The translations under genes were made by a program, and so were the position numbers. The notes under the pieces are model-generated. The model searched no databases, was not told the DNA's origin, and saw only the letters and a program-made list of their open reading frames with translations. 36,179 bases of DNA from positions 1-36,179 of IMG/VR virus record IMGVR_UViG_3300021425_000094; one strand, given 5' to 3'. Origin of the DNA: a virus. Positions 4,066-26,096 of the stretch are shown here, in pieces (within the stretch, counting starts at the first letter, position 1; each line of letters starts with the position of its first letter).

Positions 4066-6126
4066 TTATAGTCTTAATAGCAGATAATAGGTCTCTTCAT
4101 TAATCTGAATGGGAACCTTATGTGTGAAAGTAGTTACATCAGTTTGCGATAAAGAGTCTACATTAATGCCAGTAATTGTAATATTATCCCCAAAGAATAA
4201 TTCACCCATAGTTACCTCTTCTGAAAGAGTTTTTAATGTAGTTCCATCTTTTGTCCATGGGTTATTATCACTAGAGAATGCTCTAACTCCATTAATAAAA
4301 ATTCCTGGAGATTTATCATTACTTAATTGAGAATAATTATAATTTGTTGAACCAGGATCATCTATCTTTATATTCCCCTCAAACTTTATATCTCTGACAG
4401 CAGACGTATCATCTGTTCCTTTGTATTTTTGTTGAACAAAATAATCAGCAGTCTCTAAATTTGCTTGGGTAGACTCAAAAATACCATTGATAGAACCAGA
4501 CAAATAACCACCAAACTCCTCTGTGTCTTGAATTTCTGGTTCAATATAATTGAGAAGATTTTCTTGAGTTACTTTATCTTGACGCACAAATAAAAATGTC
4601 GAGTCATTAACCGAATCAACTGATACAATCGATCCAACTATGATTGTTTGTGGTGTAGATGTAGAAGTAGCAATGGTAGTATATGTGTATGAAATTTCAA
4701 GATATCCATCGCTACTCTCTGTGTATGTCGATTCTGAAGAAAGAGTGAGATAATCTGAACGATATACAGAAGAACCACCTAAACCACCAAAGGCACGGTT
4801 TGCTGGTGCTGCTCCGCCTTGTTGGTCAAAACCAGCATATTCTCCAGCACTTCCTCCAGGAGCACCACCGCCGCCACCACCGACACCACCACCGTCTCCC
4901 CCAGCGGAAACATAACCGTCACCATTACCACCATCACTAATAGAAATTGTAGAAGTGGTAGACGAAAATGCCCCGCCATCTCCACCTCCATATGCATATG
5001 GGGAATTTACTGGACCTGAATAGTTACAAAGCGATCCACCGCCGCCACCTGCGCCGCCACCAGCAACTGCTATTGTGGTATTATCAAGAGAAACGGAGGT
5101 ATATCCACCTCCACCGCCCCCACCACCAGAGGAACCTCCAGGTCTATCATCACCACCAAGACCACCACCAAATCCACCACCAAGTCCTCCTGCAAAATTA
5201 GTCTGTCCAGAATCTAATCCATTACTGCCACCACCTCCAACGGAAAATAAAAGAGTACCAGAAGTGCCATCTGGAAGTGTGAATTCGGCATATCTACCCC
5301 TACCACCTACACCACCATCTACATTTGGTGCTCCATTAACACAAGCATCCGCTCCCCCAGATCCACCACCACCAGCAGCAATCCTAATGCTAATATTACT
5401 GCTATTAGATGGAAGAGTATATTCGTATGATCCAGGAATGCTCTTGCTATCAGAGACTTGATTTGAAATGACCGTTGTAGTAACTGTTACAGGCGATAAT
5501 CCAACTGATGGTGGAGTTGTAGATAGTTGAAACTTAGTTAGTGTATCCGAGTTGCAAACATAATAATCTTGTGATGTAACTAAATTACTAGATCCAGTAT
5601 TCACATTTTTTGTTACGTTTACAACATCACCATCAGTAAAGATAAAATCATTTTTTGGTTTAAATGTGATAGTTGCTCCAGAAACGTCACTACCACTTGC
5701 GGATGCAGTATATTTTAAATCTGGTATCTCAATTTTATGTACAGTTCCACCATCTGTAGTTACTGTGGTGACAAACTCACCATTATAAACTGTTGATGCA
5801 GATCCAGTCACTCCACTTATAACAACAATATTCGGTGAATATATGTTGTAGGAACTGGACAGAGATACTTCTAGTTCTGTGGAATTTCCTGTTGTAGATG
5901 CAGTAGATACAATGGAATTTATTGGTATTACTTTATCTACATCAAAAACAAAAAAACCATCACGGATATTATTGAAAGGAATGGATGATACATTTCTTAA
6001 ATTATTTTGAATAATTCTCAAATCATTAGCAATTCCAACTCCACCAAGATTACTTAGTGCTTGAGTATCATTGGTGTTCTCTTCTAAATTTAAATCTATT
6101 CTAAATCCTTGATTTTGCTTTACCAT
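4066..6126 (-). CDS. Glycine-rich tail fibre / adhesin-like protein
   Basis: This 686-residue protein has three parts. Residues 1-240 are beta-rich with Ser/Thr-rich segments. Residues of about 245-465 are a glycine-rich domain with many runs such as GGGGGGGGY and VAGGGAGGGGG alternating with short beta segments such as YTSVSLDNTTIAV. The C-terminal 180 residues look like a conserved phage cap (SPGIFINGVRAFSSDNNPW, then MGELFFGDNITITGI). Glycine-rich domains of this type form packed polyglycine-II helices in the phage S16 gp38 adhesin, and a similar region occurs in ALK/LTK receptors, so receptor binding is a reasonable inference. The ATG lies one base after the stop of the leucine-rich-repeat gene, so the two are probably co-transcribed. 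The stop abuts that of the convergent plus-strand gene. Confidence 0.82.
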   Translation of the reverse strand: MVKQNQGFRIDLNLEENTNDTQALSNLGGVGIANDLRIIQNNLRNVSSIPFNNIRDGFFVFDVDKVIPINSIVSTASTTGNSTELEVSLSSSYNIYSPNIVVISGVTGSASTVYNGEFVTTVTTDGGTVHKIEIPDLKYTASASGSDVSGATITFKPKNDFIFTDGDVVNVTKNVNTGSSNLVTSQDYYVCNSDTLTKFQLSTTPPSVGLSPVTVTTTVISNQVSDSKSIPGSYEYTLPSNSSNISIRIAAGGGGSGGADACVNGAPNVDGGVGGRGRYAEFTLPDGTSGTLLFSVGGGGSNGLDSGQTNFAGGLGGGFGGGLGGDDRPGGSSGGGGGGGGYTSVSLDNTTIAVAGGGAGGGGGSLCNYSGPVNSPYAYGGGDGGAFSSTTSTISISDGGNGDGYVSAGGDGGGVGGGGGGAPGGSAGEYAGFDQQGGAAPANRAFGGLGGSSVYRSDYLTLSSESTYTESSDGYLEISYTYTTIATSTSTPQTIIVGSIVSVDSVNDSTFLFVRQDKVTQENLLNYIEPEIQDTEEFGGYLSGSINGIFESTQANLETADYFVQQKYKGTDDTSAVRDIKFEGNIKIDDPGSTNYNYSQLSNDKSPGIFINGVRAFSSDNNPWTKDGTTLKTLSEEVTMGELFFGDNITITGINVDSLSQTDVTTFTHKVPIQINEETYYLLLRL

Positions 6127-6127
6127 T

Positions 6128-8581
6128 TTAACTGTGCGTGATGTTCCAACCCTTCGATCTTAAAAATGCAATTTTTTCAAGAGTGCCTTCATTTGGTGCT
6201 GAATTGTTTCTTAAGTTTATCGTTACTCCTCCACGACTTACTTCTTCATAATTATCAACAAGATCATTAATAATTTGTTCAATTGCTTGTTGTGTAAGAC
6301 TATTATTTGATATATCCATGTATCTAATTCTATATAGTTCCTTAAATGATCCTTGTTTGTAGTTAGTAAATCGGTTATTATATAGAATTAGGTAATACAA
6401 GTATGGGCATTCAGTAAAGTCAGGAATCTCACCAGCAATCTGATTGTTATGTGCGTAGAAGTATCTCAGTCTTGGTAAGTTCTGGAAAGTTCCGATAGAA
6501 GTGAAACTATTATTATACAAAAAGAGATAATAGAGGTTAGAAAGGTTCTTGTAAGAAGGGATCTGTCCAGTCAGTTGATTATAACCAAGTTGTACATAAT
6601 AAATGTTTGGATTTGCAGCAAAGTTTGGAACTGATCCACTAAACCTATTATGATACATCCAAATGTATCTTAGATTTGGATTTGATCCAAAATTTGGAAG
6701 AGATCCTGTTGTTCTTCCACGGGAACGATACCAAAAATAATAGAGAGAAGAGCAAAAAGTTAGACAATTGGGGTGGATTGGAGAAGTCAGAAGATATCCA
6801 GAGTCCAACAAAATATAATATATTGATTTAAGGTCCTTGAAGGTATTTTCTGGAATTACATATGAAGTGTCACCAGATGGGTCTCCACCAGTAATATAAG
6901 TGTATCTCAGATCAAGATAGTAGAGTGATTCATTTGTGAATCGTGGTAATGCTCCAATAACATAAGATGCATAGCAATGAAGATAACGTAATGATGCACA
7001 ATTATCGAATCTATAGGTAGATCCAGAAAAAAGTGATCCAAGACTTCTACAATAATATGCATAGAAAATTTGAAGAGACTGTTTTCCAATCGTATTTTCT
7101 GGAAATTTTAAACCAGTAGAATGGATGTAAATATTAGTGATTGAATTATTATTTGCACTGATTGAAAATGTAGAATCGGTCAAGTAGTAATTTCCTGCCA
7201 AATATAAAGTAGATAAGTTGGTAAGTTGTTTTACGTTATAAGTATTTCCAGATCCACTTGCAGTATTGTCAATGCTTCTAAAATCATTAGATCCAACTCC
7301 ATAATATGTGCATGTATTCGGAACATTTGGCATTTGAGCACTTGGTTGGTACGTATCTGGGTGGAAATATGCGCCTCCACCTCTATTGAAATTAATAACT
7401 CTTAAATTCGGGAACCTATTTGCAATAATATTTTGATCTATGGAACCATAAAAAGTTCCTTCCATATAAAGTTCTCTTAATGATGTTGGGAATTTATTTG
7501 CAACACCAGTACTAAATCTTCTTTCACTTTCTATATCACTTTGATATAAAGGATTTCTCATCAAATAGATGTACAATAAATTTGGAGCAATTATATTGAA
7601 ATTGGGTAATGTTCTTAATTTATTATATGCGAAATCCAGTGTTGATGCATTTATGAATTTTACGACTGGTAACTCTGAAATATTTGCAGATTGAATTTGG
7701 ATTCGAGAAATTCGATCTGGATTGTAATAGAATTGGATATATCTTTCCCTAGATGTAGAAGATCTGTATCTTATTGTAGAAGTTGTATTGCCAACATTTA
7801 CATATTTTGAGTATCTACTTTCATTTGCAGTCTCAACGATTTTCCAACTAGCAGGAGTAGATTTTATCAGTCTGTCAAGATTAACAGTTGCATTTAAATT
7901 TCTAAAAAATCCTGTAAAAATAACAGGAATTCCTTTCATTGCATAGAGAGTTACTGTTTGTCCCCCAATATTGCACTGGATTTTTGAAGTTGGAAACTCG
8001 GATGGAAATTCTTTTTGTTGTGGTACTATTGCTGTTTGTATTCTTGGTCCACTAATTTCTGCAGACTGAGTTCCAAATTGCAAAGAACCGCCACTGATGA
8101 TGGTTGTTCTTGCTCCGTATGATATTCTTGCTTTTCCTTGGATTGTTAGATCTGTACTCGTTGCTCTTGGGTCACTGGAACTCCAAGCACTAATTCTAGA
8201 TGTGGAAATATCACCAATTCTAATTGTTGCAGATCCGCCGAATCCGTCCAAATAACGATATCTAATTGCAAACCCACTTAAAGCTCCACTAATGTTTAAA
8301 TTCCCAAATAAGGTAACATCTGTTCCCGCTCTTTTTTGTAAGATTCCATCATACTGTTCCGAATCCCTATAATATCTGTCTAATGTTTCGTGGAGGGGAA
8401 CACTTAATCTAGAAAAACTAATCCAGTCGTGTCTACTGGCACCAGCATCTGCAGATCCAGCAATAATTTCTAGATCTAAAGGATTTAAATTAAGTTCCTT
8501 TAATGCAGAAGTCTTACTTTCTACATCAGATAAAAAACTTAAAACATTAAGTCCGAATATTTTTGGGTTTCTAATTGCCAT
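6128..8581 (-). CDS. Leucine-rich-repeat virion protein, putative host-recognition adhesin
   Basis: The 817-residue product has an N-terminal structural segment (residues 1-290, MAIRNPKIFGLNVLSFLSDV onward) followed by leucine-rich repeats from about residue 300 to 770. The clearest repeats are 22-23 residues long, for example NLRYIWMYHNRFSGSVP, NIYYVQLGYNQLTGQIP and LRYFYAHNNQIAGEIP, which match the plant-type LRR pattern 'L..L.L..N.l.G.IP'. Many consensus Leu positions are Tyr or Phe. The C-terminus (VTINLRNNSAPNEG, then LRSKGWNITHS) resembles the capping segment of bacterial LRR surface proteins. LRR folds bind proteins or glycans, so a surface-exposed receptor-binding role is inferred. 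There is no signal peptide. It has a modest ribosome site (AGGAAA) and sits 11 bases after a 14-codon relic of a tail-fibre N-terminus. It is the first full gene after the late promoter at 8660-8668. Confidence 0.85.
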   Translation of the reverse strand: MAIRNPKIFGLNVLSFLSDVESKTSALKELNLNPLDLEIIAGSADAGASRHDWISFSRLSVPLHETLDRYYRDSEQYDGILQKRAGTDVTLFGNLNISGALSGFAIRYRYLDGFGGSATIRIGDISTSRISAWSSSDPRATSTDLTIQGKARISYGARTTIISGGSLQFGTQSAEISGPRIQTAIVPQQKEFPSEFPTSKIQCNIGGQTVTLYAMKGIPVIFTGFFRNLNATVNLDRLIKSTPASWKIVETANESRYSKYVNVGNTTSTIRYRSSTSRERYIQFYYNPDRISRIQIQSANISELPVVKFINASTLDFAYNKLRTLPNFNIIAPNLLYIYLMRNPLYQSDIESERRFSTGVANKFPTSLRELYMEGTFYGSIDQNIIANRFPNLRVINFNRGGGAYFHPDTYQPSAQMPNVPNTCTYYGVGSNDFRSIDNTASGSGNTYNVKQLTNLSTLYLAGNYYLTDSTFSISANNNSITNIYIHSTGLKFPENTIGKQSLQIFYAYYCRSLGSLFSGSTYRFDNCASLRYLHCYASYVIGALPRFTNESLYYLDLRYTYITGGDPSGDTSYVIPENTFKDLKSIYYILLDSGYLLTSPIHPNCLTFCSSLYYFWYRSRGRTTGSLPNFGSNPNLRYIWMYHNRFSGSVPNFAANPNIYYVQLGYNQLTGQIPSYKNLSNLYYLFLYNNSFTSIGTFQNLPRLRYFYAHNNQIAGEIPDFTECPYLYYLILYNNRFTNYKQGSFKELYRIRYMDISNNSLTQQAIEQIINDLVDNYEEVSRGGVTINLRNNSAPNEGTLEKIAFLRSKGWNITHS

Positions 8582-8709: not shown

Positions 8710-9324
8710 TCAAGACAGTGGTAGATACGTCAGGGAATCTATACTCCCTAAACTTTCTTTTGCAAACGTATTAAACGACAAACTAATACGTGTATTATCA
8801 GATGTATTTTTAGATACTGAATGTCTTAGGTCTGAAGGAAATAAAATTAACTCTGCTGTTTTAGCAGGAACTAATCTATAATAATTATTACGTTCATTTA
8901 ATGTGTGATATTTTAAGAGGAGATTGCCAGGATGAGGTCTTTGAAATTTCATACATGGCATATCCTCATCTAACGCAAAGTAAAATACTCCACTTAAAAT
9001 ACTATTTGGATGGGAATGTTCTTGGTGTTCTTGTCCGAAAAAACTTTTATTGATCCACGATTGAGTGATGATCAATTCTGTAGAAGAACCCCAAACATAA
9101 TTCATGTACATTTTAATCCTGTCTTCAAAGAAAGATTTTAATTTTGAAAGAGCAGGATTTTTTAGTACGAAAGTATCTTTAGATTGCATGTTATAATTTG
9201 CAGTTTCACTTTTATTTTCTCTACTACAATCTAAATTATTAACATACTCTTTTTCTTCTTCAAAGTTTTCATCATAGGATGACACCAAAATGGGGGTAGT
9301 AAAAGTTTCAATTAAGTTGTTCAC
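8710..9324 (-). CDS. 2OG-Fe(II) oxygenase family protein
   Basis: This 204-residue protein fits the putative 2OG-Fe(II) oxygenase family (2OG-FeII_Oxy_5 / TIGR02466 type) common in cyanophages. The diagnostic blocks are SWINKS near residue 89, EHSHPNSILSGVFYF at 102-116, and FPSDLRHSV with TRISLSFNTF at 162-187. The likely iron ligands are H103 or H105 with H168, and R179 is the likely 2-oxoglutarate-binding arginine. These assignments come from family pattern, not alignment. The start codon is GTG at 9324 and overlaps the TGA of the previous gene (GTGA). A strong Shine-Dalgarno GAGGAG (9331-9336) six bases upstream supports this start and suggests translational coupling. The substrate is unknown; candidates are virion fibre residues or a host metabolite. 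Confidence 0.85.
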   Translation of the reverse strand: MNNLIETFTTPILVSSYDENFEEEKEYVNNLDCSRENKSETANYNMQSKDTFVLKNPALSKLKSFFEDRIKMYMNYVWGSSTELIITQSWINKSFFGQEHQEHSHPNSILSGVFYFALDEDMPCMKFQRPHPGNLLLKYHTLNERNNYYRLVPAKTAELILFPSDLRHSVSKNTSDNTRISLSFNTFAKESLGSIDSLTYLPLS

Positions 9325-9995
9325 AAGGTTCTCCTCAAAAGGTCATGGGAAATTTGATTTAAATTAAATATTGCTTCAGTTATATATTCATTTGATTCAG
9401 TTCTATCAAGAACTCGTAGAGATTCATTTACTTTATAATGAATCGATCTTAAAAAAGGATCTGAAAATCTGGAGGTAGTCCAAAATACTGCTGCTAATCT
9501 TTCTCCAGATTCTACGGTAGATACCTCATGGAGGATGCCTGTGTCGTATGTTATTGCTTCACCAGCATCAAGTTTTATTTTATGAGAACCAAAATCGTTA
9601 TGTAAGACAAGTTCTCCACCTTCATAAGTATCAGGATCAGATAAAAACACCGTTGTACTATAGTGTCCGTTTAATCCTAAATCGTGATGTAACCTATAGT
9701 AATCACCCATTTTCATCTTTGTTATCATAATAAATCCAGTGGTTTTAGGACAAACCAATAGATCAAAACCACCATCTCTTTCAAGAGCATTAATAATTAT
9801 TGAATTAATATTAGAGTTAATTTGATAATTATTAAGTTGAGTTAATTGTTTAAGTTGTTTTGTATTTTCGTTACTATTAGAAACTGAATGAAGTCCATCC
9901 ATCCAATCAGTTTCTACAGTGCTTGAAAGTAAGTTACAAATTTGTTGTAGTTCATAGTCAAGTAATAATTTTCTAGAATAATGATGTTGAGTCAT
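9321..9995 (-). CDS. PKHD-type 2OG-Fe(II) hydroxylase (PiuC/YbiX-like)
   Basis: The 224-residue protein has the length and layout of PKHD-type hydroxylases (prolyl-4-hydroxylase fold). It carries an HxD iron motif at H103-x-D105 within YRLHHDLG, a TTVFLSDPDTYEGGELVL block at about 114-131, distal His at H156 (GILHEVS) and the 2-oxoglutarate arginine at R166 (SGERLAAVFWTTS). All four expected catalytic positions are present, so it should be active. Homologues are frequent in T4-like cyanophages, with no firmly known substrate. It begins ten bases after the collar-fibre stop and overlaps the next oxygenase gene by four bases. The two enzymes therefore form a coupled pair inside the fibre gene cluster. 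No clear Shine-Dalgarno precedes its ATG. Confidence 0.9.
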   Translation of the reverse strand: MTQHHYSRKLLLDYELQQICNLLSSTVETDWMDGLHSVSNSNENTKQLKQLTQLNNYQINSNINSIIINALERDGGFDLLVCPKTTGFIMITKMKMGDYYRLHHDLGLNGHYSTTVFLSDPDTYEGGELVLHNDFGSHKIKLDAGEAITYDTGILHEVSTVESGERLAAVFWTTSRFSDPFLRSIHYKVNESLRVLDRTESNEYITEAIFNLNQISHDLLRRTL

Positions 9996-10005
9996 AGTTA
10001 AAATA

Positions 10006-10563
10006 TCATAGTTTCATAATGTATGCAAGAGCATAGTAAGGAGGTCTGTTTTCGTGGTAGTTGTTGCCGCCCTGGTTGCCAGTGTATTGATCCCCTGGAT
10101 TGTCGTTTGCCATGTCAGTTTGTGCATTAGGACCAGAACCCTGCTGATAAATTCTTCTTTCATTATAAGTATGATTATGCTGCGGCATTTCAGCAACAGT
10201 CAATTTATGAGCAACTGTACCACCAGTGTTTCCAGGACCATAGTTACCACTAGTAACACCACTTGTTGCATTAAATGTTACACCACTTGCCCCATCACTA
10301 TGAGCACCAACAATAAATTTATCCCTTAAATCTGGTGTACCATTAGAACCATTACATAATGCCCATCCAGATGGAATAGTTGCAATACTTCCAGACCACA
10401 TTACAATGCCTCCAGTTGGAAATATTCCAGTTAGTGATGAACCATCTCCAATAAAACTCTGAGCAGTAATACTACTATTTGGTAGACTTAGGTCATCAGA
10501 ATCAGTTAACTCCTGAATCTGATTAGCTGTACTATTGACTATTAGCGGTCTACGAGATGCCAT
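10006..10563 (-). CDS. Tail-collar domain short fibre protein
   Basis: The 185-residue protein has an N-terminal anchor of about 34 residues (MASRRPLIVNSTANQIQELT to NSSITA), then a phage tail-collar domain starting GGIVMWSGSIATIPSGWALC with the hallmark TPDLRDKFIVGA. It ends in a His-rich stretch (AEMPQHNHTY) and RPPYYALAYIMKL. Collar domains of this kind occur in T4 gp12 short tail fibres and MdpB-like proteins; gp12 binds lipopolysaccharide as a trimer. The protein is short, so it is probably a small fibre or tip. Its anchor is almost the same as in the next fibre upstream, whereas the C-terminal parts differ. A late-promoter box lies 16 bases before the ATG, with no good Shine-Dalgarno. 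Confidence 0.88.
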   Translation of the reverse strand: MASRRPLIVNSTANQIQELTDSDDLSLPNSSITAQSFIGDGSSLTGIFPTGGIVMWSGSIATIPSGWALCNGSNGTPDLRDKFIVGAHSDGASGVTFNATSGVTSGNYGPGNTGGTVAHKLTVAEMPQHNHTYNERRIYQQGSGPNAQTDMANDNPGDQYTGNQGGNNYHENRPPYYALAYIMKL

Positions 10564-10588
10564 TATACTGTTTTTTCTTTATTTATTG
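10463..10588 (-). repeat. 126-bp fibre-anchor repeat, copy A
   Basis: It spans the late promoter, the 16-base leader and the first 34 codons of the 185-residue fibre. It matches copy B (11114-11239) with no gaps and, by my hand count, seven substitutions. Identity stops sharply where the fibre bodies begin. Confidence 0.88.
10580..10587 (-). promoter_or_regulatory. Late promoter box AATAAATA for the 185-residue fibre
   Basis: The box lies three bases past the previous gene's stop codon and 16 bases before ATG 10563. It is one base from the T4 late core. The same box and leader sequence precede the other collar fibre. Confidence 0.6.
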
Positions 10589-10590
10589 AT

Positions 10591-11214
10591 TTAGTACTTG
10601 ATGCAAGCAAGAAGTGCGATGTTACGGGGACGGGTTTCGGGGTCACCACCGTCGATGGTGTGCTCATGAGCACCGCCTCCGCCAGTAGTAGCACCAGTAA
10701 ATGAATCATAAAGAGAATGTTGATCAGGACCATCATCCGTAATACTTGCCACATACTGAAGTATACTATAACCGTGGGTGTGATCACCAGGGTCATCAGT
10801 ACCAAATGGGTTATTAGGTAGTGCAGTAGAGTCAGTTTGACTGCTACCAAACGTACGGCCACTATCTACACCAGCACTATCATCCCAACCACGAAGAAAC
10901 TCACCACGAAGGTCAGGTAGTTTACCAGCACTTCCATAGGTAGAACCAATTATTGCATACAATGCAGAGAAGTCAGCAGTTACACCTTGAACAGTACCAG
11001 AACCATTAGGGATTGTATCACCATTTGCTTTTAAGTATCCAACTGGTGCTGTACTTGCGGCAAAGTGAAATACTGCACCAGCTGGAACTGTTCCATTTCC
11101 AATAAAAATTGAAGCAGTAATACTACTATTTGGCAGACTTAGATCATCAGAATCAGTTAACTCTTGAATCTGATTAGCTGCACTATTAACTATTAGAGGT
11201 CTACGAGATACCAT
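10591..11214 (-). CDS. Tail-collar / long-fibre-tip type protein
   Basis: The 207-residue protein starts with the same 34-residue anchor (MVSRRPLIVNSAANQIQELT) and continues with a collar-like domain: VPAGAVFHFAASTAPVGYLK, then SALYAIIGSTYGSAGKLPDL and RGEFLRGWDD. It has a His-containing segment (DPGDHTHGYS, GGAHEHTIDGG) and the classic ending ETRPRNIALLACIKY. The RGEFLRGWD and RPRNIAL elements are typical of phage side-tail-fibre C-termini, where His pairs coordinate metal ions along a trimer axis. It sits between the 1234-residue structural gene and the second collar fibre. Its late-promoter box overlaps the stop codon of the preceding gene. Confidence 0.88.
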   Translation of the reverse strand: MVSRRPLIVNSAANQIQELTDSDDLSLPNSSITASIFIGNGTVPAGAVFHFAASTAPVGYLKANGDTIPNGSGTVQGVTADFSALYAIIGSTYGSAGKLPDLRGEFLRGWDDSAGVDSGRTFGSSQTDSTALPNNPFGTDDPGDHTHGYSILQYVASITDDGPDQHSLYDSFTGATTGGGGAHEHTIDGGDPETRPRNIALLACIKY

Positions 11215-11239
11215 TATACTGTTTTTTCTTTATTTATTG
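11114..11239 (-). repeat. 126-bp fibre-anchor repeat, copy B
   Basis: This is the counterpart of 10463-10588. It covers the stop codon of the 1234-residue gene, the late-promoter box, the leader and the first 34 codons of the 207-residue fibre. A third, much shorter relic of the same start is at 8593-8637. Confidence 0.88.
11231..11238 (-). promoter_or_regulatory. Late promoter box AATAAATA for the 207-residue fibre
   Basis: The box overlaps the TAA stop of the preceding gene (11234-11236) and lies 16 bases before ATG 11214. The spacing is identical to that of the second collar fibre. Confidence 0.6.
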
Positions 11240-14200
11240 CTCTTTCCAGGTGATACCCGCCTCAATAGTGCCAGAATCACCAGCATCAATTTTTTTAGCA
11301 ACAAAGAAAGTTGCTTCAATATTATTATTGTCTGGAGTTACAACCCTCCTGTCCTGTCCAAAAATTTTAGACATGTCAATTTCTTGAGTTGAATTTGCTC
11401 CAACATAGAGAATATCTCTTTCAACCCCTGGTCTTAATCTCTGTTCATTTTGAACATCTACTAAAGCAGAAGAAAGTCTGCTTACTTCATCGAAATTGGT
11501 TGGCGCTGCTCCAGATATGTCTGCGTTTCCACCAGCATTTGTTATCTCTGCACTTGGAAGATCTCCCCCCTCTTCAAAAACATAAAACTTTGGAGAAATG
11601 GTTCTAACAAAGTCGCCAACAGTTTCTTTTACTGAAATATTATTAATTGCAGCATTATCTTTTAATTTTGCAACAAGGTAGAGGGGATATGGATTATAGT
11701 TATAAAGTTTTACTTTTAATGGAGATCCATTTGCGGTTAATTTTACTGGACGAATCAATATCGTAAAAGGTGTTCCCGACGACCCTCCAAGAGTATCACT
11801 AATCTGAATATAAGAATAAAATGTATTACCACTTGTATATGTAAACACATCTCCTATAAATGTAACGCCAGTTATTTGTGCTGTTTCACCAGAAAGAATA
11901 GCGATTTGTCCACCATCATAATCAACAGTTGGTAATGAACCCTCTACTTGAATGAATGTTCTTCCTTCTGGATCTTGAACTGCTGGATCTCCATCTTCTG
12001 GATGATAATTTAACTCAAAAACCTCTGTGATTTGAGAGGGATCTGAAATTTCAATAGTTACTTTTGAGCAGATTCCAGGGGAAGGAGATGGAAGTGATGG
12101 AATTCTATAGTCAATACCCATTCTTAACGGTGGATTAGTTGGTGCCCAACTTTCACTAATTTCAACACCTTCTTCATTTAATGCAGCATATGAATGTGTA
12201 TGTTCTGCAAATAAAATACTTGATAGTGGTAAAGTAGTTGTAGTTCCAGCACCAGTAGAGAAACCCTCCAAAATATTTGGATCACTGGTGACTGGTTCTA
12301 CATCAGTTACACCGATTAAGAAATCTGACCAATGGGAATAAGAATCTTTTTGATTTGGATTGACAAATTGAATCTCAATTTTAGAACCAGTAAACTTGAA
12401 ATTGGAAGCAGCGCAGTGATCATAATTGCTTAATCTAACACCATATGGGTATGGTCCATTGCCAATACTTGTTGTGAGTCCTGTAATTCTATCTAAAGTT
12501 TCAATTCCTGATATTGGTCTATCTCCATAATCGGGATATCCATCGAGACCAGGACCCCACCCCTTAACAAGTGCAGATTCAAATGAACCTGCCGCTCCAA
12601 CAGGACCATCAACACTTACAATATATGCATTGTAAATTGTAGGGGAAATAAGTTTTGCTCCAATATCAGACTCATAAAAATAAGTATCATTAATTGCAGC
12701 AATGTCATTTGGTCCAACAAATTCAAATTCAACAGTTCTACCCACCGAGGTTGATGCAAGTCCTGGTGTGTATACATGTCCAAATCCAGGGCAACCTTTG
12801 CAAGTTATAACTTTGATTTCTGTTAAGGAATCTGAAGTTACACTGAGTCTTGATGGAATAATTAGTTTTTTATTTTGTATTTCCGTTCCTACACTATTAA
12901 GTATGTAATTTTTTGGTACGATGCCAAAAATGGATCTATAATCTACTGGATTTGTTGCTTTTAGTGGTGATGATTTGGAGTAAATCTGAGTAGTTCCTTC
13001 ATCGCCACCATCAATATAGTAAGAAGCACCGTACTTATATAAGAATTGTGGTGTTCTTACGTCAGATGTATTTTCGATATTTAATGAATACTTTAATCTA
13101 AAATAAGAATCCTGTAAACATGGACTTCCAAGTGAGTTTTCGATGACTAAAGTGTGAATAACAACCCATCTCGCTTCTCCAGGTCCCGCTGGAATATACG
13201 CATAGAATCTGGCACCAATAGCACCATACCAACCAAACTCAATCTTATACATGGTAACTTTTTCTGGTTGAATTAGATAACCAGAAGGTCCATTACCATT
13301 CAGTGGATCGCCATTAAATTTATCTCTGGGAATTTCAATTGTCCAATATTCAGTATCATCAAATGGGTCACCAGATTGCTTTCTAATTTGATCTGCATTT
13401 TCCAAATTACTTCTTCTAAGTGCAGATAATTCTAATGGAATAGTACTTCTGCGAATAATTTTAAGTTGTCCAGCATTAATTTGAAAAACATATTGATCCG
13501 TTGGGTTTGAAATGCCCCATTCCAAAGTCAAACCACTAACTGGTTCAGACGAAGATCTTAAACCAAAAGTAAATCCACTAATTCTTCCCGATTGATATCT
13601 AAAAACTCTTCTAGATTGTAAAAAAGCGTACCTTTGAAAGTTTGCGTTATAACCAGGCCTAGTATTTGTTGAGTCAAATGATCCATCTAAAATTGAATCA
13701 ACTGTACTAAAATTAAACGTAAGTCCAGTTACAGGATCTGTTAAAAGACTGTCTTTTATATCTCTCCAAGTGTCAGTCCAAGTGTCAACTAATCCAAAAG
13801 ATTCGGAAATTCCAACAGAGTAAACAACATCTCCAGTTTTGACATACACTTTAGATGGATCCAAAAATCTATCTTTCCAATCTGCAGGATATCCTAGAGA
13901 TGAACCGTCTCCAGTATCATAGTATTCGTACAAATCATTTCCCAACTGAATGAATGATATGTATTGATTAAATAGTGTCTCATTATACAATCCAACATTT
14001 ACGAATTTCGGACCAAATGGATAAGAATATGGTGGTGGAAATGCTTGTATTTTTATTCCAGATTCTTGTATTTCTTCTGTTCTTGTAGCAAGGTAGCGAT
14101 TTCCATATAAATTATTCGCTCTATTATCCCAACTACCGAAACTAGTACCTGCATTATAAGTATAGAACTCGAATTCATCTGGATCTAATCCATAAGATGA

Positions 14201-14938
14201 AACATTAGAGAATAAACTTAATTGAGTTTCTGCACGAGGAACTCCCAAAAGACTAGAACTAACTTGACTGGTCTCTTTGAATTGTTCTGCAATTTTCCAT
14301 ACGTTATCTGATCTTCTTAAATTACTTGTTGATCTATCTATTCCTACCTCAGCAGTATAAGGAGACCCAGAAATAGTGGTTTCTTTTGATAAAACTAATT
14401 TTGCTGAGTTAGACTTTGATATAAATGTATCATCTGGTATTCCACCACCAGAGATTTTATCGAAGACTTGAATATTATAACTTGAAATATTTTCTTCAAA
14501 ATATATTTTATTATAATCTACTCCAATATCCTCAAATGTCTTGACTATGACATATGGATAGTCATCTAGTGTAACTGTACCACCAGATTGCAGAGATACT
14601 GTCTCGCCAAAACTAACAGAACCGCTTCCCACAGTTAGCACTGTAGTTGATACATATGCATCAAGATCGACTCCATATGTTCCAGTTAAAGCAGCAATTC
14701 TGGAATGATCTACTCTTGTGTAAGTGTCATAAGGTTCACTAGAAAAAGTAATAGAAGTTGATCTATCCATTGATGCATCTGGAACATAATATTCATCAAC
14801 TTCTGTAATTAGAGGAGTTCCAAATTCATCGGTTAAGATTTCACCATTAGCAATATTGTAGAGACTTTGTTCATTTGAGGGAATGATTGAAACTCTACGT
14901 TTATCATCCCCAAATTTTACGTCTTTTCCCCCATTCAT
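11234..14938 (-). CDS. Large virion structural protein, paralogue of the upstream 1191-residue protein
   Basis: This 1234-residue protein has no recognisable enzyme domain. It shares several blocks in the same order with its upstream neighbour: SLLGVPRAETQLSLFSNV near residue 225, FRYQSGRISGFTFG near 450, MYKIEFGWYGAIGARFYAYI near 560, KYGASYYIDGGDEGT near 635, and a C-terminal GTIEAGITWKEQ. The pair therefore arose by duplication. I recall proteins of this family in the structural cluster of T4-like cyanophages, annotated only as virion structural proteins. The ATG at 14938 is three bases past the neighbour's stop, with a GGGAGGAG ribosome site inside the neighbour's last codons. A baseplate-periphery or fibre role is inferred from position. 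Confidence 0.8.
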   Translation of the reverse strand: MNGGKDVKFGDDKRRVSIIPSNEQSLYNIANGEILTDEFGTPLITEVDEYYVPDASMDRSTSITFSSEPYDTYTRVDHSRIAALTGTYGVDLDAYVSTTVLTVGSGSVSFGETVSLQSGGTVTLDDYPYVIVKTFEDIGVDYNKIYFEENISSYNIQVFDKISGGGIPDDTFISKSNSAKLVLSKETTISGSPYTAEVGIDRSTSNLRRSDNVWKIAEQFKETSQVSSSLLGVPRAETQLSLFSNVSSYGLDPDEFEFYTYNAGTSFGSWDNRANNLYGNRYLATRTEEIQESGIKIQAFPPPYSYPFGPKFVNVGLYNETLFNQYISFIQLGNDLYEYYDTGDGSSLGYPADWKDRFLDPSKVYVKTGDVVYSVGISESFGLVDTWTDTWRDIKDSLLTDPVTGLTFNFSTVDSILDGSFDSTNTRPGYNANFQRYAFLQSRRVFRYQSGRISGFTFGLRSSSEPVSGLTLEWGISNPTDQYVFQINAGQLKIIRRSTIPLELSALRRSNLENADQIRKQSGDPFDDTEYWTIEIPRDKFNGDPLNGNGPSGYLIQPEKVTMYKIEFGWYGAIGARFYAYIPAGPGEARWVVIHTLVIENSLGSPCLQDSYFRLKYSLNIENTSDVRTPQFLYKYGASYYIDGGDEGTTQIYSKSSPLKATNPVDYRSIFGIVPKNYILNSVGTEIQNKKLIIPSRLSVTSDSLTEIKVITCKGCPGFGHVYTPGLASTSVGRTVEFEFVGPNDIAAINDTYFYESDIGAKLISPTIYNAYIVSVDGPVGAAGSFESALVKGWGPGLDGYPDYGDRPISGIETLDRITGLTTSIGNGPYPYGVRLSNYDHCAASNFKFTGSKIEIQFVNPNQKDSYSHWSDFLIGVTDVEPVTSDPNILEGFSTGAGTTTTLPLSSILFAEHTHSYAALNEEGVEISESWAPTNPPLRMGIDYRIPSLPSPSPGICSKVTIEISDPSQITEVFELNYHPEDGDPAVQDPEGRTFIQVEGSLPTVDYDGGQIAILSGETAQITGVTFIGDVFTYTSGNTFYSYIQISDTLGGSSGTPFTILIRPVKLTANGSPLKVKLYNYNPYPLYLVAKLKDNAAINNISVKETVGDFVRTISPKFYVFEEGGDLPSAEITNAGGNADISGAAPTNFDEVSRLSSALVDVQNEQRLRPGVERDILYVGANSTQEIDMSKIFGQDRRVVTPDNNNIEATFFVAKKIDAGDSGTIEAGITWKEQ

Positions 14939-14941
14939 GAA

Positions 14942-17900
14942 TCACTGCTCCTCCCAAGTTAAACTTGCTGATATTTCTGCTGACGGACTGCTAGGGTTAT
15001 AAGAAGATTGAGAAGAACCACAAAGGTATAGACTTTCAACTTTATTTGTTAATGGGAATGATAGATATTCTTTATTGTAGTCAAAGTATGGAGAAAGATC
15101 ATATTCTTCACCAGAAGCAGGAACAAAAATACTTGCCACGATTGTTCCAGTTCCTGGAATAGGACTTCTGGTTTGTGGATTCACTTTTACTGAAGACAGT
15201 TGATCTAAAGTAAATTCAGATGTGGTTGATGATGTTCCTTCTCCAATTGGCGTTGAATTTTCTTCTCTTAAAAATGGTTCAGCAGTGGTGAGAATAATAT
15301 TATCTAGTGTTGATTCTAAGGCATAGAAATAATAACCATCTGTTTCAATACCTTTAGTTCTATCTGAACCCCTGTTCTCAAGATATCCAAGAACTGAAAT
15401 TGGTCTTTGTGATGCATCACTTTCAAAGTATCCTCTAAAGTAACCGTAAGTTCCTGTGCCAATATCTCTAATGTATTCGGCTTGCGCCTGGCCAACATTA
15501 ACTGTAAATGTTGTATCATTTATACGAGTTACTGTTAAATTTTGTCCAGAAGTTGGGTCAGTTGATCTTGGATATGAATGTGTGGTTGCGTAATTATCCA
15601 AAGAGCATGTAAGTGTAATTGCACCATTTGCAATAGCAACTGTATCTCCCGTTGTCATCCCATGATTATCGGTAGTTACAACAGTCAAAACTCCAGATGA
15701 TCCATCATAATCAGTTCCAGTTGTTGCAGTTAATGTTCCACCTGCTGCATCACCAGTTTGAATTGAGATTGCGCCAGCAGTTCCAGAACTAAAATTATGA
15801 TTACCAGTATAAACTACTAGAGGTAATTCAACTCTGGTTGGTTTTCCCCTTTTTCCGATATTTACTGAAGATGTTAATGAAGGAATCCCATCATTTGGTT
15901 CAACAATAACAGCGTCTGTTTGGAAGATGGGTGTTTTTAAGAGATCTAACTTGATGACACCAGTTGAACCAGTAGAAAGTCTTGTTGGATAAACTTGTGT
16001 CCTATTTCTTACACTTCTACCAGTACTACTTTGAATGAAGTCTCTGCATTTAATACCAATTAGAGGAGTAACACGTTCTGGAATAATATCAATGGTTGAT
16101 ATTGAACTTGAACTTAATGGTGCATTCAGATGAAGTCGATCGTTTTGTGGATTATAGTAATTAATTTTAATATTTTGATCTAGTGGATTAGAAGTAATAA
16201 CTCTTGCACCAACATAATACGAAGAGGATAATCCAGAAGTTGCGCCTGCGGTCATGTATGGATCTGAAGAATCAGTAGCACTATTAAGTGAAACTTGAGT
16301 TGACCCAGTTCCAACTCCATAAGTTCTTCTCAATCCATAAACATTGGTGCTTGTTGGAGAACCATAACTAAAGAGTTTTACTGTACCACGGTCACCACCA
16401 TCAATATAGTATGAAGCACCATACTTGACAATATGTTCGGAAGAAGATCCATATCCAAATTCAGTTTGGGTTCTAAGTGAATTTGCATAACCCTCTCTAT
16501 TTGGACCACCCCCACCATATACCAGATAAGTGATTGGAAGCGTTGCATTGCCCAGTGAGGAGACCTTCAACTGGTTTGATGCTCTCAGGTGGTGTACTCG
16601 CACCCAACGTGCCTCACCATTGCTTACAGGCACATATGCGAGGAATAGGGCACCAACAGCACCGTACCATGAGAACTCAACCTTGTACATGGTAACCTTG
16701 GTTAGATCAAGATCCCAAATACTTGTATCAGTCAGTTGTTCGCCAGTGTCTGCGTCAGTAACAACTTGTCCTGCTCTCTTGTCTGATACAACATCACTGT
16801 ATAAAAGTCTATCAGTATCACCATCTAATCGGTCACCACTAAATCTAGATCTTGGGATACGATACTCATAAACACCAAAATACTGGATATCAACGTTCTG
16901 ATTTACCCATTTATCGTAATATGCATTCAGTTGGTCAATTTGAGTCTTGAGATCAGAAGTATTTCCAACAGGTAAAGTAGTATCAATATATCCTTCATCG
17001 TTCCCATCTGCATCAAAATACATATAGGGGAACATTCCCGTTGGTTTTACAGTTGTGTAAGCAGTTCTATCACCATTAACAAGAGTTCCAAGAACAGGTT
17101 GAATAAATGGAACAGGAGTCACCAGAACATGTGATGAAATTCCAGCATAACCATTTACATTTGGAAGTCCAGTTACTGTGTTATTGTTAAGTGTATTCAA
17201 TGTGATCGCAGTATTACTATTTGATGTATCGACTGCAACGCTAGTTACTTTATAAATTTGATCATCAACCAAATTAGTAATAACAGTAGAACTAGTTCCC
17301 TTGCTATATGAAACATATTGGCCAGTGGATAAACCTACTGCATGACCACCACTTTGATAGTAAGTTGGCACAGTAGAAACACCAACATTAACGGTGAATG
17401 AAGTTGGGGAATCTACTCTTACAATATTATAACCGTGAGTTCTATTTGGATATATTTTTTGCTCGTTGGTAAAACTACCAACATCACATGTCATGGCGAT
17501 CCCAGTTAATGTAATATATTTTCCATTTTTAAATCCATGCTCACCAGAAGTAGTAACGGTCATTAAACCGTTTTCGATATTGTAGACGGCATTGGTTATA
17601 CTCTTTGCTAATCCTGTTAATGAAATGGTATTTCCATTGTAAATGGAAGAAATTCCAACTTCATATCTTGGTTGTAGCAGTGACCCATCATATACGGCAG
17701 CATGAGTCATCATAAGGTTATCCCTTACTATGACTAAATCTCCCAGTTTTGAATTAGTATATCCACTAGGAACTGAAGTTTCGCCAGCACCGACAGATTC
17801 AGAACCTCTTGGTTCTAAAGGATCGTATGGATTAGTTACTCCATAATCAGAAGTTTGACCAGGATTTGCAGTATTGCTAAACTCTACTGGATTTTTAAAA

Positions 17901-18517
17901 GTAATTGATTGAGTTCTTCTAACTACACAGAAGTTATCTCCTTCACCGTTATTTCTTGATTCCCAGTAATATCCATCATAGTTGTCAAAGATTCCATATT
18001 TACGAACACATGGATTATATATTCCAGCACCATTAGAAGCGATTAGAGTTGTCTTTACACCAAAGGTAGCAGAAGAGACACGACCTGGTTGATATCTGAA
18101 GAATCTCTTTGATGTGAGAACTGCAGTCTTATCTGCAGGAGCCTCAAGAAGAGCACCAGATTCTTCTGGGACGTGCGTAAGTCCCCACCCCATAGTCTGA
18201 GCAACACCAACATAGTTGCCATCGTTACCAACAGTAGCAAACTGTTCTGGTGTTGATGTCCACTCACTTGGGTTTACATCATAAGTATTAACGTCAGCAA
18301 AAATACCAAGAGCAACTTCTGATCTGGGAATTCCAAGAAGAGATAAAGCAACTTCAGATTGGACTTTGTTTTGTTCTTCAACTGGAATTGTTGATTGATC
18401 AACTGCAATAACAACTGGAATTGATTTATCAGAAGTCTGTTGACCAGGAGGAACAGGAGCAGTTCTACCTACAACAGTTACTGCTGAATTATTATTTACG
18501 TTAGTATTGTCTGGCAT
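14942..18517 (-). CDS. Large virion structural protein, paralogue of the downstream 1234-residue protein
   Basis: The 1191-residue protein begins MPDNTNVNNNSAVTVVGRTA. It carries the conserved blocks seen in its downstream paralogue: SLLGIPRSEVALGIFADV near residue 60, FRYQPGRVSSATFG near 140, MYKVEFSWYGAVGALFLAYV near 610, KYGASYYIDGGDRGT near 705, and the ending AEISASLTWEEQ. It also holds two copies of a beta module with 'G-I/A-x-x-x-T-C' followed by SFTVNVG or TFTVNVG, near residues 340-380 and 965-1010. There are no membrane or catalytic motifs. Its start touches the stop of the giant 2296-residue gene without a gap, so the three large genes are probably one late operon. The exact virion location cannot be told. 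Confidence 0.8.
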   Translation of the reverse strand: MPDNTNVNNNSAVTVVGRTAPVPPGQQTSDKSIPVVIAVDQSTIPVEEQNKVQSEVALSLLGIPRSEVALGIFADVNTYDVNPSEWTSTPEQFATVGNDGNYVGVAQTMGWGLTHVPEESGALLEAPADKTAVLTSKRFFRYQPGRVSSATFGVKTTLIASNGAGIYNPCVRKYGIFDNYDGYYWESRNNGEGDNFCVVRRTQSITFKNPVEFSNTANPGQTSDYGVTNPYDPLEPRGSESVGAGETSVPSGYTNSKLGDLVIVRDNLMMTHAAVYDGSLLQPRYEVGISSIYNGNTISLTGLAKSITNAVYNIENGLMTVTTSGEHGFKNGKYITLTGIAMTCDVGSFTNEQKIYPNRTHGYNIVRVDSPTSFTVNVGVSTVPTYYQSGGHAVGLSTGQYVSYSKGTSSTVITNLVDDQIYKVTSVAVDTSNSNTAITLNTLNNNTVTGLPNVNGYAGISSHVLVTPVPFIQPVLGTLVNGDRTAYTTVKPTGMFPYMYFDADGNDEGYIDTTLPVGNTSDLKTQIDQLNAYYDKWVNQNVDIQYFGVYEYRIPRSRFSGDRLDGDTDRLLYSDVVSDKRAGQVVTDADTGEQLTDTSIWDLDLTKVTMYKVEFSWYGAVGALFLAYVPVSNGEARWVRVHHLRASNQLKVSSLGNATLPITYLVYGGGGPNREGYANSLRTQTEFGYGSSSEHIVKYGASYYIDGGDRGTVKLFSYGSPTSTNVYGLRRTYGVGTGSTQVSLNSATDSSDPYMTAGATSGLSSSYYVGARVITSNPLDQNIKINYYNPQNDRLHLNAPLSSSSISTIDIIPERVTPLIGIKCRDFIQSSTGRSVRNRTQVYPTRLSTGSTGVIKLDLLKTPIFQTDAVIVEPNDGIPSLTSSVNIGKRGKPTRVELPLVVYTGNHNFSSGTAGAISIQTGDAAGGTLTATTGTDYDGSSGVLTVVTTDNHGMTTGDTVAIANGAITLTCSLDNYATTHSYPRSTDPTSGQNLTVTRINDTTFTVNVGQAQAEYIRDIGTGTYGYFRGYFESDASQRPISVLGYLENRGSDRTKGIETDGYYFYALESTLDNIILTTAEPFLREENSTPIGEGTSSTTSEFTLDQLSSVKVNPQTRSPIPGTGTIVASIFVPASGEEYDLSPYFDYNKEYLSFPLTNKVESLYLCGSSQSSYNPSSPSAEISASLTWEEQ

Positions 18518-25572: not shown

Positions 25573-25613
25573 CTGACGCACACGGAAGGGGATGGTTCGG
25601 CAGTATCGCCAAG

Positions 25614-25687
25614 AGCCAACTAACGGACTTGAACCGTTGACCTGAGCTTTACAAAAACCCTGCTCTATCCAGCTGAGCTAAGTTGGC
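25614..25687 (-). tRNA. tRNA-Thr (anticodon UGU)
   Basis: A full cloverleaf fits: acceptor GCCAACT pairing with AGTTGGC, D arm GCTC/GAGC, anticodon loop TTTGTAA with anticodon TGT, and T arm AACGG-TTCAAGT-CCGTT. The anticodon stem contains two G-U pairs. No CCA is encoded. It would read ACA codons, which are favoured in AT-rich phage genes. It lies two bases after the 89-residue gene's stop codon. Confidence 0.92.
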
Positions 25688-25689
25688 AT

Positions 25690-25959
25690 TTAATCAACAG
25701 GTAATAGTTCTGGGTTCTCCAGATCTAATTCAAACATAAGAGGATGGCAAAGTTCATCAATCAAATAGAATGATGAATAGTATAACTCTTCTGGTTCAAA
25801 TCTTTTTTCATTATCTGCGATTGCTAGAATTTCCCTATCGTAATACAAACTTTCAGGAACTTCATCAAAAGTAAATGGAACTTGGTTTATGAAATACATA
25901 AGAACCAACATTGATTCTTTATTGTACCAAACGTATCTGGTGTCAATACGGTATTTCAT
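25690..25959 (-). CDS. 89-residue acidic hypothetical protein between two tRNAs
   Basis: The protein begins MKYRIDTRYVWYNKESMLVL and ends ENPELLPVD. It is acidic, rich in Glu, Asp and Tyr, and has no membrane segment or recognised motif. Its C-terminal half (FEPEELYYSSFYLIDEL) suggests helices. I do not recognise the family. It is squeezed between tRNA-Leu upstream and tRNA-Thr two bases downstream, within the sigma70-promoted unit, so it is probably co-transcribed with the tRNAs and released by tRNA processing. A purine-rich GGAACAGGA lies just before the ATG. The clean reading frame and position support a real gene; function unknown. Confidence 0.65.
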   Translation of the reverse strand: MKYRIDTRYVWYNKESMLVLMYFINQVPFTFDEVPESLYYDREILAIADNEKRFEPEELYYSSFYLIDELCHPLMFELDLENPELLPVD

Positions 25960-25983
25960 TCCTGTTCCGTACTTTTGTTTATT

Positions 25984-26004
25984 TAGAGATTAAGAAAATC
26001 TCTA
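25984..26004 (-). other. Perfect hairpin abutting the tRNA-Leu 3' end
   Basis: TAGAGATT, loop TTCTT, AATCTCTA gives an uninterrupted eight-pair stem that starts at the base after the tRNA discriminator. No T-run follows, so it is more likely a processing signal or 3' block than a terminator. Confidence 0.5.
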
Positions 26005-26088
26005 TAGGACGAGGGGGACTTGAACCCCCACGGGAATACTCCCAACAGATTTTAAGTCTGGTGCGTCTACCACTTCCGCCACCGTCCC
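26005..26088 (-). tRNA. tRNA-Leu (anticodon UAA)
   Basis: The 84-base cloverleaf has acceptor GGGACGG against TCGTCCT, anticodon stem CCAGA/TCTGT with loop CTTAAAA (anticodon TAA), the long class II variable arm (GGGA/TCCC hairpin) and T arm GGGGG-TTCAAGT-CCCCC. No CCA is encoded. It reads UUA and UUG, abundant in AT-rich phage genes. Confidence 0.94.
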
Positions 26089-26096
26089 ATAAAAAC

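Follow-up and report, generated by a model that had tools for sequence, protein, structure and literature searches.

The horseshoe fold of leucine-rich repeat (LRR) proteins is best known from plant immune receptors, and among the phage tail adhesins known so far beta-helices, beta-sandwich and collar-type tips predominate. LRR or LRR-like regions also occur in phage proteins: in Bacillus phage G gp353, in ORF 287 of Vibrio phage pir03, listed as a BspA-type LRR ORF (PMC7765460), and in a tail-module protein of vibriophage P. lipares, which was proposed to be LRR-like on weak evidence (PMC10945359). The S-TIM5-type phages, whose host is Synechococcus, carry a further case. Gp118 of S-TIM5 (YP_007006107.1 / H6WFW9) is, like its S-TIM54 counterpart, annotated as "virion structural protein", a label found on most genes of its cluster, and H6WFW9 is labelled "virion structural protein and packaging".

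We analysed a stretch of 36,179 nucleotides, the whole of positions 1 to 36,179 of the viral record IMGVR_UViG_3300021425_000094 (hereafter the window), in which an LRR protein is encoded among tail genes. This protein, S-TIM5 gp118 and its S-TIM54 counterpart (UYE97282.1) have a homologous N-terminal domain, an LRR region, the I and H genes upstream and a convergent structural gene downstream. The S-TIM5 and S-TIM54 proteins differ from it in sequence (about 20% identity), in length (1193-1217 aa) and by many insertions. For the LRR proteins of the other phages no common N-terminal domain or gene order is shown, and some of them belong to other LRR classes or are weak predictions. While LRRs in phage proteins were already known, the present family with its LRR solenoid, widespread as it is, has apparently not been recognised as such earlier; in the literature searches no paper describing an LRR tail protein in cyanophages was found.

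Gene and predicted fold of the LRR protein

The first-pass annotation of the window had read one ORF as the gene of an LRR protein, and this reading was exact in its coordinates, with LRR matches far above chance in Pfam and PDB (Table 1). In Pfam, the strongest matches were LRR_4 (2.1e-17) and LRR_8 (3.2e-17), both above the cut-off, and LRR_4 was matched in each of the 33 diverse relatives scanned. In the PDB sequence search plant LRR receptor kinases matched over residues 575-765, FLS2 at 3.6e-35. Structure prediction, which the same annotation had suggested as a check, was carried out with AlphaFold2 (AF2) from 13 family sequences and returned an LRR solenoid. The model is confident from about residue 220 on (pLDDT mostly over 85-90 across residues 300-817), the solenoid extending over about residues 300-764 and being closed by a helical cap with conserved "I..DL..NY" and "LR..GW.I" motifs. 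The solenoid was matched to plant receptor ectodomains by Foldseek (E 1.6e-12) and by VIA (Z 28.5, 488 residues aligned, rmsd 4.8), and the best viral structure match was H6WFW9 of S-TIM5 (E 2.3e-17), followed by gp353 of Bacillus phage G. As modelled, the protein is a horseshoe-shaped LRR solenoid.

Table 1. Coordinates, in the window, of the LRR gene, its parts and its neighbours
Feature	Position	Strand	Remarks
Whole LRR tail protein gene	6128-8581	-	single open ORF, ATG start, 817 aa; layout common to about 50 diverged homologues
N-terminal domain, residues 1-217, presumed virion anchor	7931-8581	-	conserved across the family
Beta-rich domain ahead of the solenoid, residues 218-300	7682-7930	-	AF2 pLDDT about 72-93
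LRR solenoid, residues 301-764, about 18 strand units	6290-7681	-	Pfam LRR, AF2, Foldseek, VIA, unit register
Ten repeats with Tyr at each concave x3 (LxYLxLxxN), residues 531-764	6290-6991	-	10/10 Tyr
Two adjacent units with similar DNA (6606-6637 and 6675-6706)	6606-6706	-	81% over 32 nt
C-terminal cap (two helices, last strand), residues 765-817	6131-6289	-	AF2
Gene B, convergent neighbour, 758 aa	1789-4065	+	
Gene C, usual neighbour downstream; in the window it has a large Gly-rich stretch	4066-6126	-	
Gene H, virion structural protein of 1234 aa, usual upstream neighbour in relatives	11234-14938	-	phrog_1645
Gene I, structural protein of 1191 aa, same block	14942-18517	-	
Gene J, tail fibre protein of 2296 aa	18518-25408	-	phrog_529, phrog_4527

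The plant LRR receptor ectodomains (FLS2, BRI1/BRL2, RGFR1, PEPR1, MIK2) have the LxxLxLxxNxxxGxIP repeat and the long solenoid in common with the window protein, which in contrast to them has no kinase and carries a phage-type N-terminal domain; the likeness is one of fold and repeat and is not evidence of descent. Plant-type LRRs with G-x-IP turns had been claimed for about residues 300-770, and while the predicted solenoid does cover this range, the GxIP-type turns (GQIP, GEIP, GSVP, GSLP, GALP) are confined to the C-terminal half. Looked for in all repeats, this second motif is absent from most of them. Since it occurs in only about five C-terminal repeats, the plant-type label suits the C-terminal part and not the whole solenoid. 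The final units are regular plant-type repeats of 22-24 aa and the N-terminal repeats are irregular.

The N-terminal domain has an invariant STSRxS motif and a predicted helix at about residues 63-85. The pLDDT was below 50 over most of this stretch, so that the modelled fold is of low confidence. When the N-terminal part was modelled separately as a monomer the confidence was low and the fold search gave no confident PDB match, and neither was a confident PDB fold match obtained for the beta-rich domain. PDB sequence searches with the N-terminal domain and with H, I and J returned nothing significant.

Relatives and host

Some 50 diverged proteins with 20-76% identity to that of the window were found to be related to it, nearly all in uncultured viral contigs. 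The contig scans comprised 15, 47, 26 and 80 loci in overlapping sets, the last number being that kept from 131 loci in the N-terminal search; 52 members of 786-1618 aa were left once redundancy at 85% identity or above had been removed. In the prokaryote genomes searched no relatives were found. The only cultured phages found to have a relative were S-TIM5, S-TIM61, S-TIM66 and S-TIM54. This group surfaced only through a weak LRR match, and when three family members were searched directly by tblastn against cultured phages there was no match. In HHalign the family matched S-TIM5/S-TIM54 with 96.7% probability (E 3.6e-10) over residues 10-347, that is, the N-terminal part and the first repeats. 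Since this profile match includes the N-terminal domain, the homology is more than a generic LRR resemblance, and it is supported also by the structure match and the common upstream genes. Two PHROGs of unknown function, phrog_6688 and phrog_21719, match the repeats of the window protein only and give no N-terminal match. In all 33 diverse members scanned the N-terminal domain stood together with LRRs, and modular swapping of heads on this domain, a candidate addressed with the N-terminal search, was seen in none of them.

Photo_RC (psbA/psbD-type) genes were present in 8 of the 20 records tested; because of these genes the host is taken to be a cyanobacterium. The capsid region of a relative of 236 kb is closest to Synechococcus phage S-SRM01. 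In this same relative the reading frame of the LRR gene (L012, 10001-10120) seems broken about 37 codons in, through either a sequencing error or pseudogenisation. Two environmental relatives gave a Pfam gp23 match, S-TIM5 and S-TIM54 none; that the LRR module is present whether or not a T4-type capsid protein can be recognised suggests that it may be of old ancestry or have been exchanged.

Gene neighbourhood and conservation

The location in a fibre and tail cluster, noticed at first pass, was borne out by PHROG and Pfam matches, the neighbours being structural, collar and tail fibre genes. Nearly all loci whose flanks extend far enough have the genes in the order I-H-LRR-C, with B convergent and J further upstream. 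H comes before the LRR gene almost throughout, including in S-TIM5, which has the I-H-LRR order (H match, E 3.8e-107); homology of the genes downstream of the LRR gene was not detected there. In the window itself two collar-domain proteins and two 2OG-Fe(II) oxygenases stand between H and the LRR gene. The adjacent oxygenase genes (phrog_81, phrog_61; 8710-9995, minus strand) separate a collar protein from the LRR gene, and since the collar protein directly adjoins the LRR gene in close relatives, the pair looks inserted. The adjacent collar-domain proteins (10006-11214, minus strand) begin with the common N-terminus RRPLIVNSxANQIQELTDSDDLSLPNSSITA, possibly an attachment tag common to both. 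Elsewhere in the window, tRNA-Thr (TGT) and tRNA-Leu (TAA) genes lie between J and gene K (25613-26089, minus strand), and a tandem repeat of 2.1 copies of a 78-bp unit (185-349) is found within a partial gene with tail-fibre-type matches.

The gene C product is 686 aa long in the window and about 200-650 aa, mostly 300-530, in relatives, and it matches virion structural PHROGs (phrog_2155). Since Gly-rich stretches are known to occur in some phage adhesins, gene C is a candidate for a variable receptor-binding part. In profile comparisons the LRR N-terminus resembled that of gene B weakly (E 2.4e-5, only 50% probability) and did not match gene C; a regex for tail-fibre motifs gave nothing useful.

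In mid-distance relatives the LRR protein is 57-59% identical, level with H and J. It evolves slower than B, C and the collar proteins, and greater variation is seen in the neighbours B, C, F and G. Being conserved about as its structural neighbours are, it is unlike a hypervariable receptor-binding tip or a fast host-range determinant, and the raised diversity relative to other tail proteins that is a usual, if not obligatory, trait of receptor-binding proteins was not found in it.

Tyrosines, concave face and repeat variation

The protein had been described as unusually rich in Tyr at the Leu positions of its repeats. The richness is real, Tyr making up 11.2% of residues 311-764 compared with 4.4% of the other window proteins, but the placement is not: family-wide, Tyr occupies 2.4% of the core positions L1/L4/L6 and 39% of the exposed position x3. 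In canonical LRR geometry x3 faces the concave side. In the last ten repeats of the window protein the core holds a single Tyr and x3 is Tyr throughout (hypergeometric p 6e-10 with the regional Tyr content taken into account), which rules out Tyr as a substitute for core Leu. In FLS2, by contrast, the x3 positions are rarely Tyr (about 2 of 23 in the repeats examined). Several close relatives have Tyr at x3 in 8-10 of the ten repeats. Distant members mostly have 0-6 and often carry S, T, R, N or E there with the repeat frame kept, the full ladder being limited to the clade of the window protein.

Entropy by repeat position was 1.30 for the core (L1, L4, L6), 1.88 for the other exposed positions and 2.11 for the concave positions x3/x5/x7. 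As the difference between the two exposed classes is marginal (p = 0.06) and no such excess was seen in close pairs, the concave face was not shown to be hypervariable. What changes between clades is the chemistry of the concave face, on a constant repeat frame: the comparison of repeat number and concave residues among relatives, suggested at first pass, gave no sign of repeat gain or loss and revealed differences in the concave residues at x3.

Variation by repeat gain and loss had also been suggested and was not seen. Across 26 relatives, which are 31-87% identical over residues 631-764, the length of this region differs by only -3 to +6 aa, the exception being S-TIM5, the most distant, with +70 aa. 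Insertions occur at a small number of sites, including those after residues 112, 178, 382, 444 and 570, and also near the C-terminus (after 795); they are loops and tail extensions with no regular LRR units inside. The similarity of the DNA of neighbouring units near 6600-6720, ascribed earlier to duplication, does exist, and the two stretches lie 69 nt apart, that is, one 23-aa unit. In the synonymous-shuffle test, however, the codon-aligned stretch had 79% identity against 71% expected (p = 0.15), and no whole unit pair fell below p = 0.06. The shared amino acids and the codon use of the gene account for the similarity, so that it does not speak for a recent duplication of units, a reading that the test left unsupported.

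Discussion

The analysis yielded an LRR fold prediction, a common N-terminal domain, a fixed gene order, a cyanophage origin, a constant repeat frame and a lineage-specific concave face. The proposal that the LRR protein is a tail component is probable in the light of the predicted solenoid, the fixed order among tail genes and the annotation of the S-TIM5 homologue, and its position together with this annotation makes a virion role likely. In the mechanism that we propose it would be a baseplate- or fibre-associated virion component of cyanobacterial phages. The N-terminal part of roughly 300 residues would dock the protein on the particle beside the I and H products, and a single solenoid with its two-helix cap would be displayed from it. 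The concave face, which in this clade combines the unbroken Tyr ladder with further aromatics, would be the likely binding surface and would most plausibly hold a polymer of the host cell surface, either glycan or protein, as the phage adsorbs. We infer that the protein is present in the virion of this phage, attached at this site, and that it binds the host, perhaps as a receptor-binding protein. Since the concave face is aromatic-lined and changes between clades, host binding is its most plausible use. To the reading as a whole, a conserved tail protein with N-terminal docking and a concave face that most plausibly holds a host surface polymer, we give an even chance. Its wider form, a widespread and unrecognised class of cyanophage adhesins in gp23-type and S-TIM5-type phages, in which the LRR solenoid recognises the host and the concave face is re-lined by each clade on a fixed frame, is put forward tentatively, as somewhat more likely to fail than to hold.

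The same data could be explained by a structural connector, a possible but rather doubtful alternative. The solenoid would then be a virion scaffold whose concave face holds a virion protein (H, C or a fibre subunit), and other genes of the cluster would recognise the host. The slow evolution of the LRR protein, conserved about like H and usually beside it, fits this nearly as well as it fits host binding; in the 33 members scanned the N-terminal domain never carries another head, and B, C, F and G are more variable, C being lengthened here by its Gly-rich stretch. A conserved interface inside the virion would be less expected to change its concave chemistry between clades, though such change could also arise by co-evolution with a partner.

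It is unlikely that the protein acts in the virion at another step, with mucus, particles or another environmental surface, or a phage-carried factor, as its ligand instead of a host receptor. LRRs do bind many ligands, and mucus-associated vibriophages have been proposed to carry an LRR-like protein in the tail module (PMC10945359), but that case has 10% HHpred probability and no demonstrated homology to the LRR protein, and the relatives found here are cyanophage contigs without a shown tie to mucus. Still less credible is a non-virion protein of the infection stage (an exclusion factor or assembly chaperone) lying by chance in the tail block, in view of its place inside the structural block, which is constant whether or not the phage has a gp23-type capsid protein, the virion structural annotation in S-TIM5 and the weak likeness of its N-terminal stretch to that of gene B.

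Among tail scaffolds a conserved LRR horseshoe would be unusual, and the S-TIM5 "virion structural protein" gains a fold from this family. As a core member of the tail block of uncultured marine cyanophages, the LRR family offers a concrete protein for host-binding tests. If the adhesin reading is true, it would be an analogue of the LRR pattern receptors of plants and animals.
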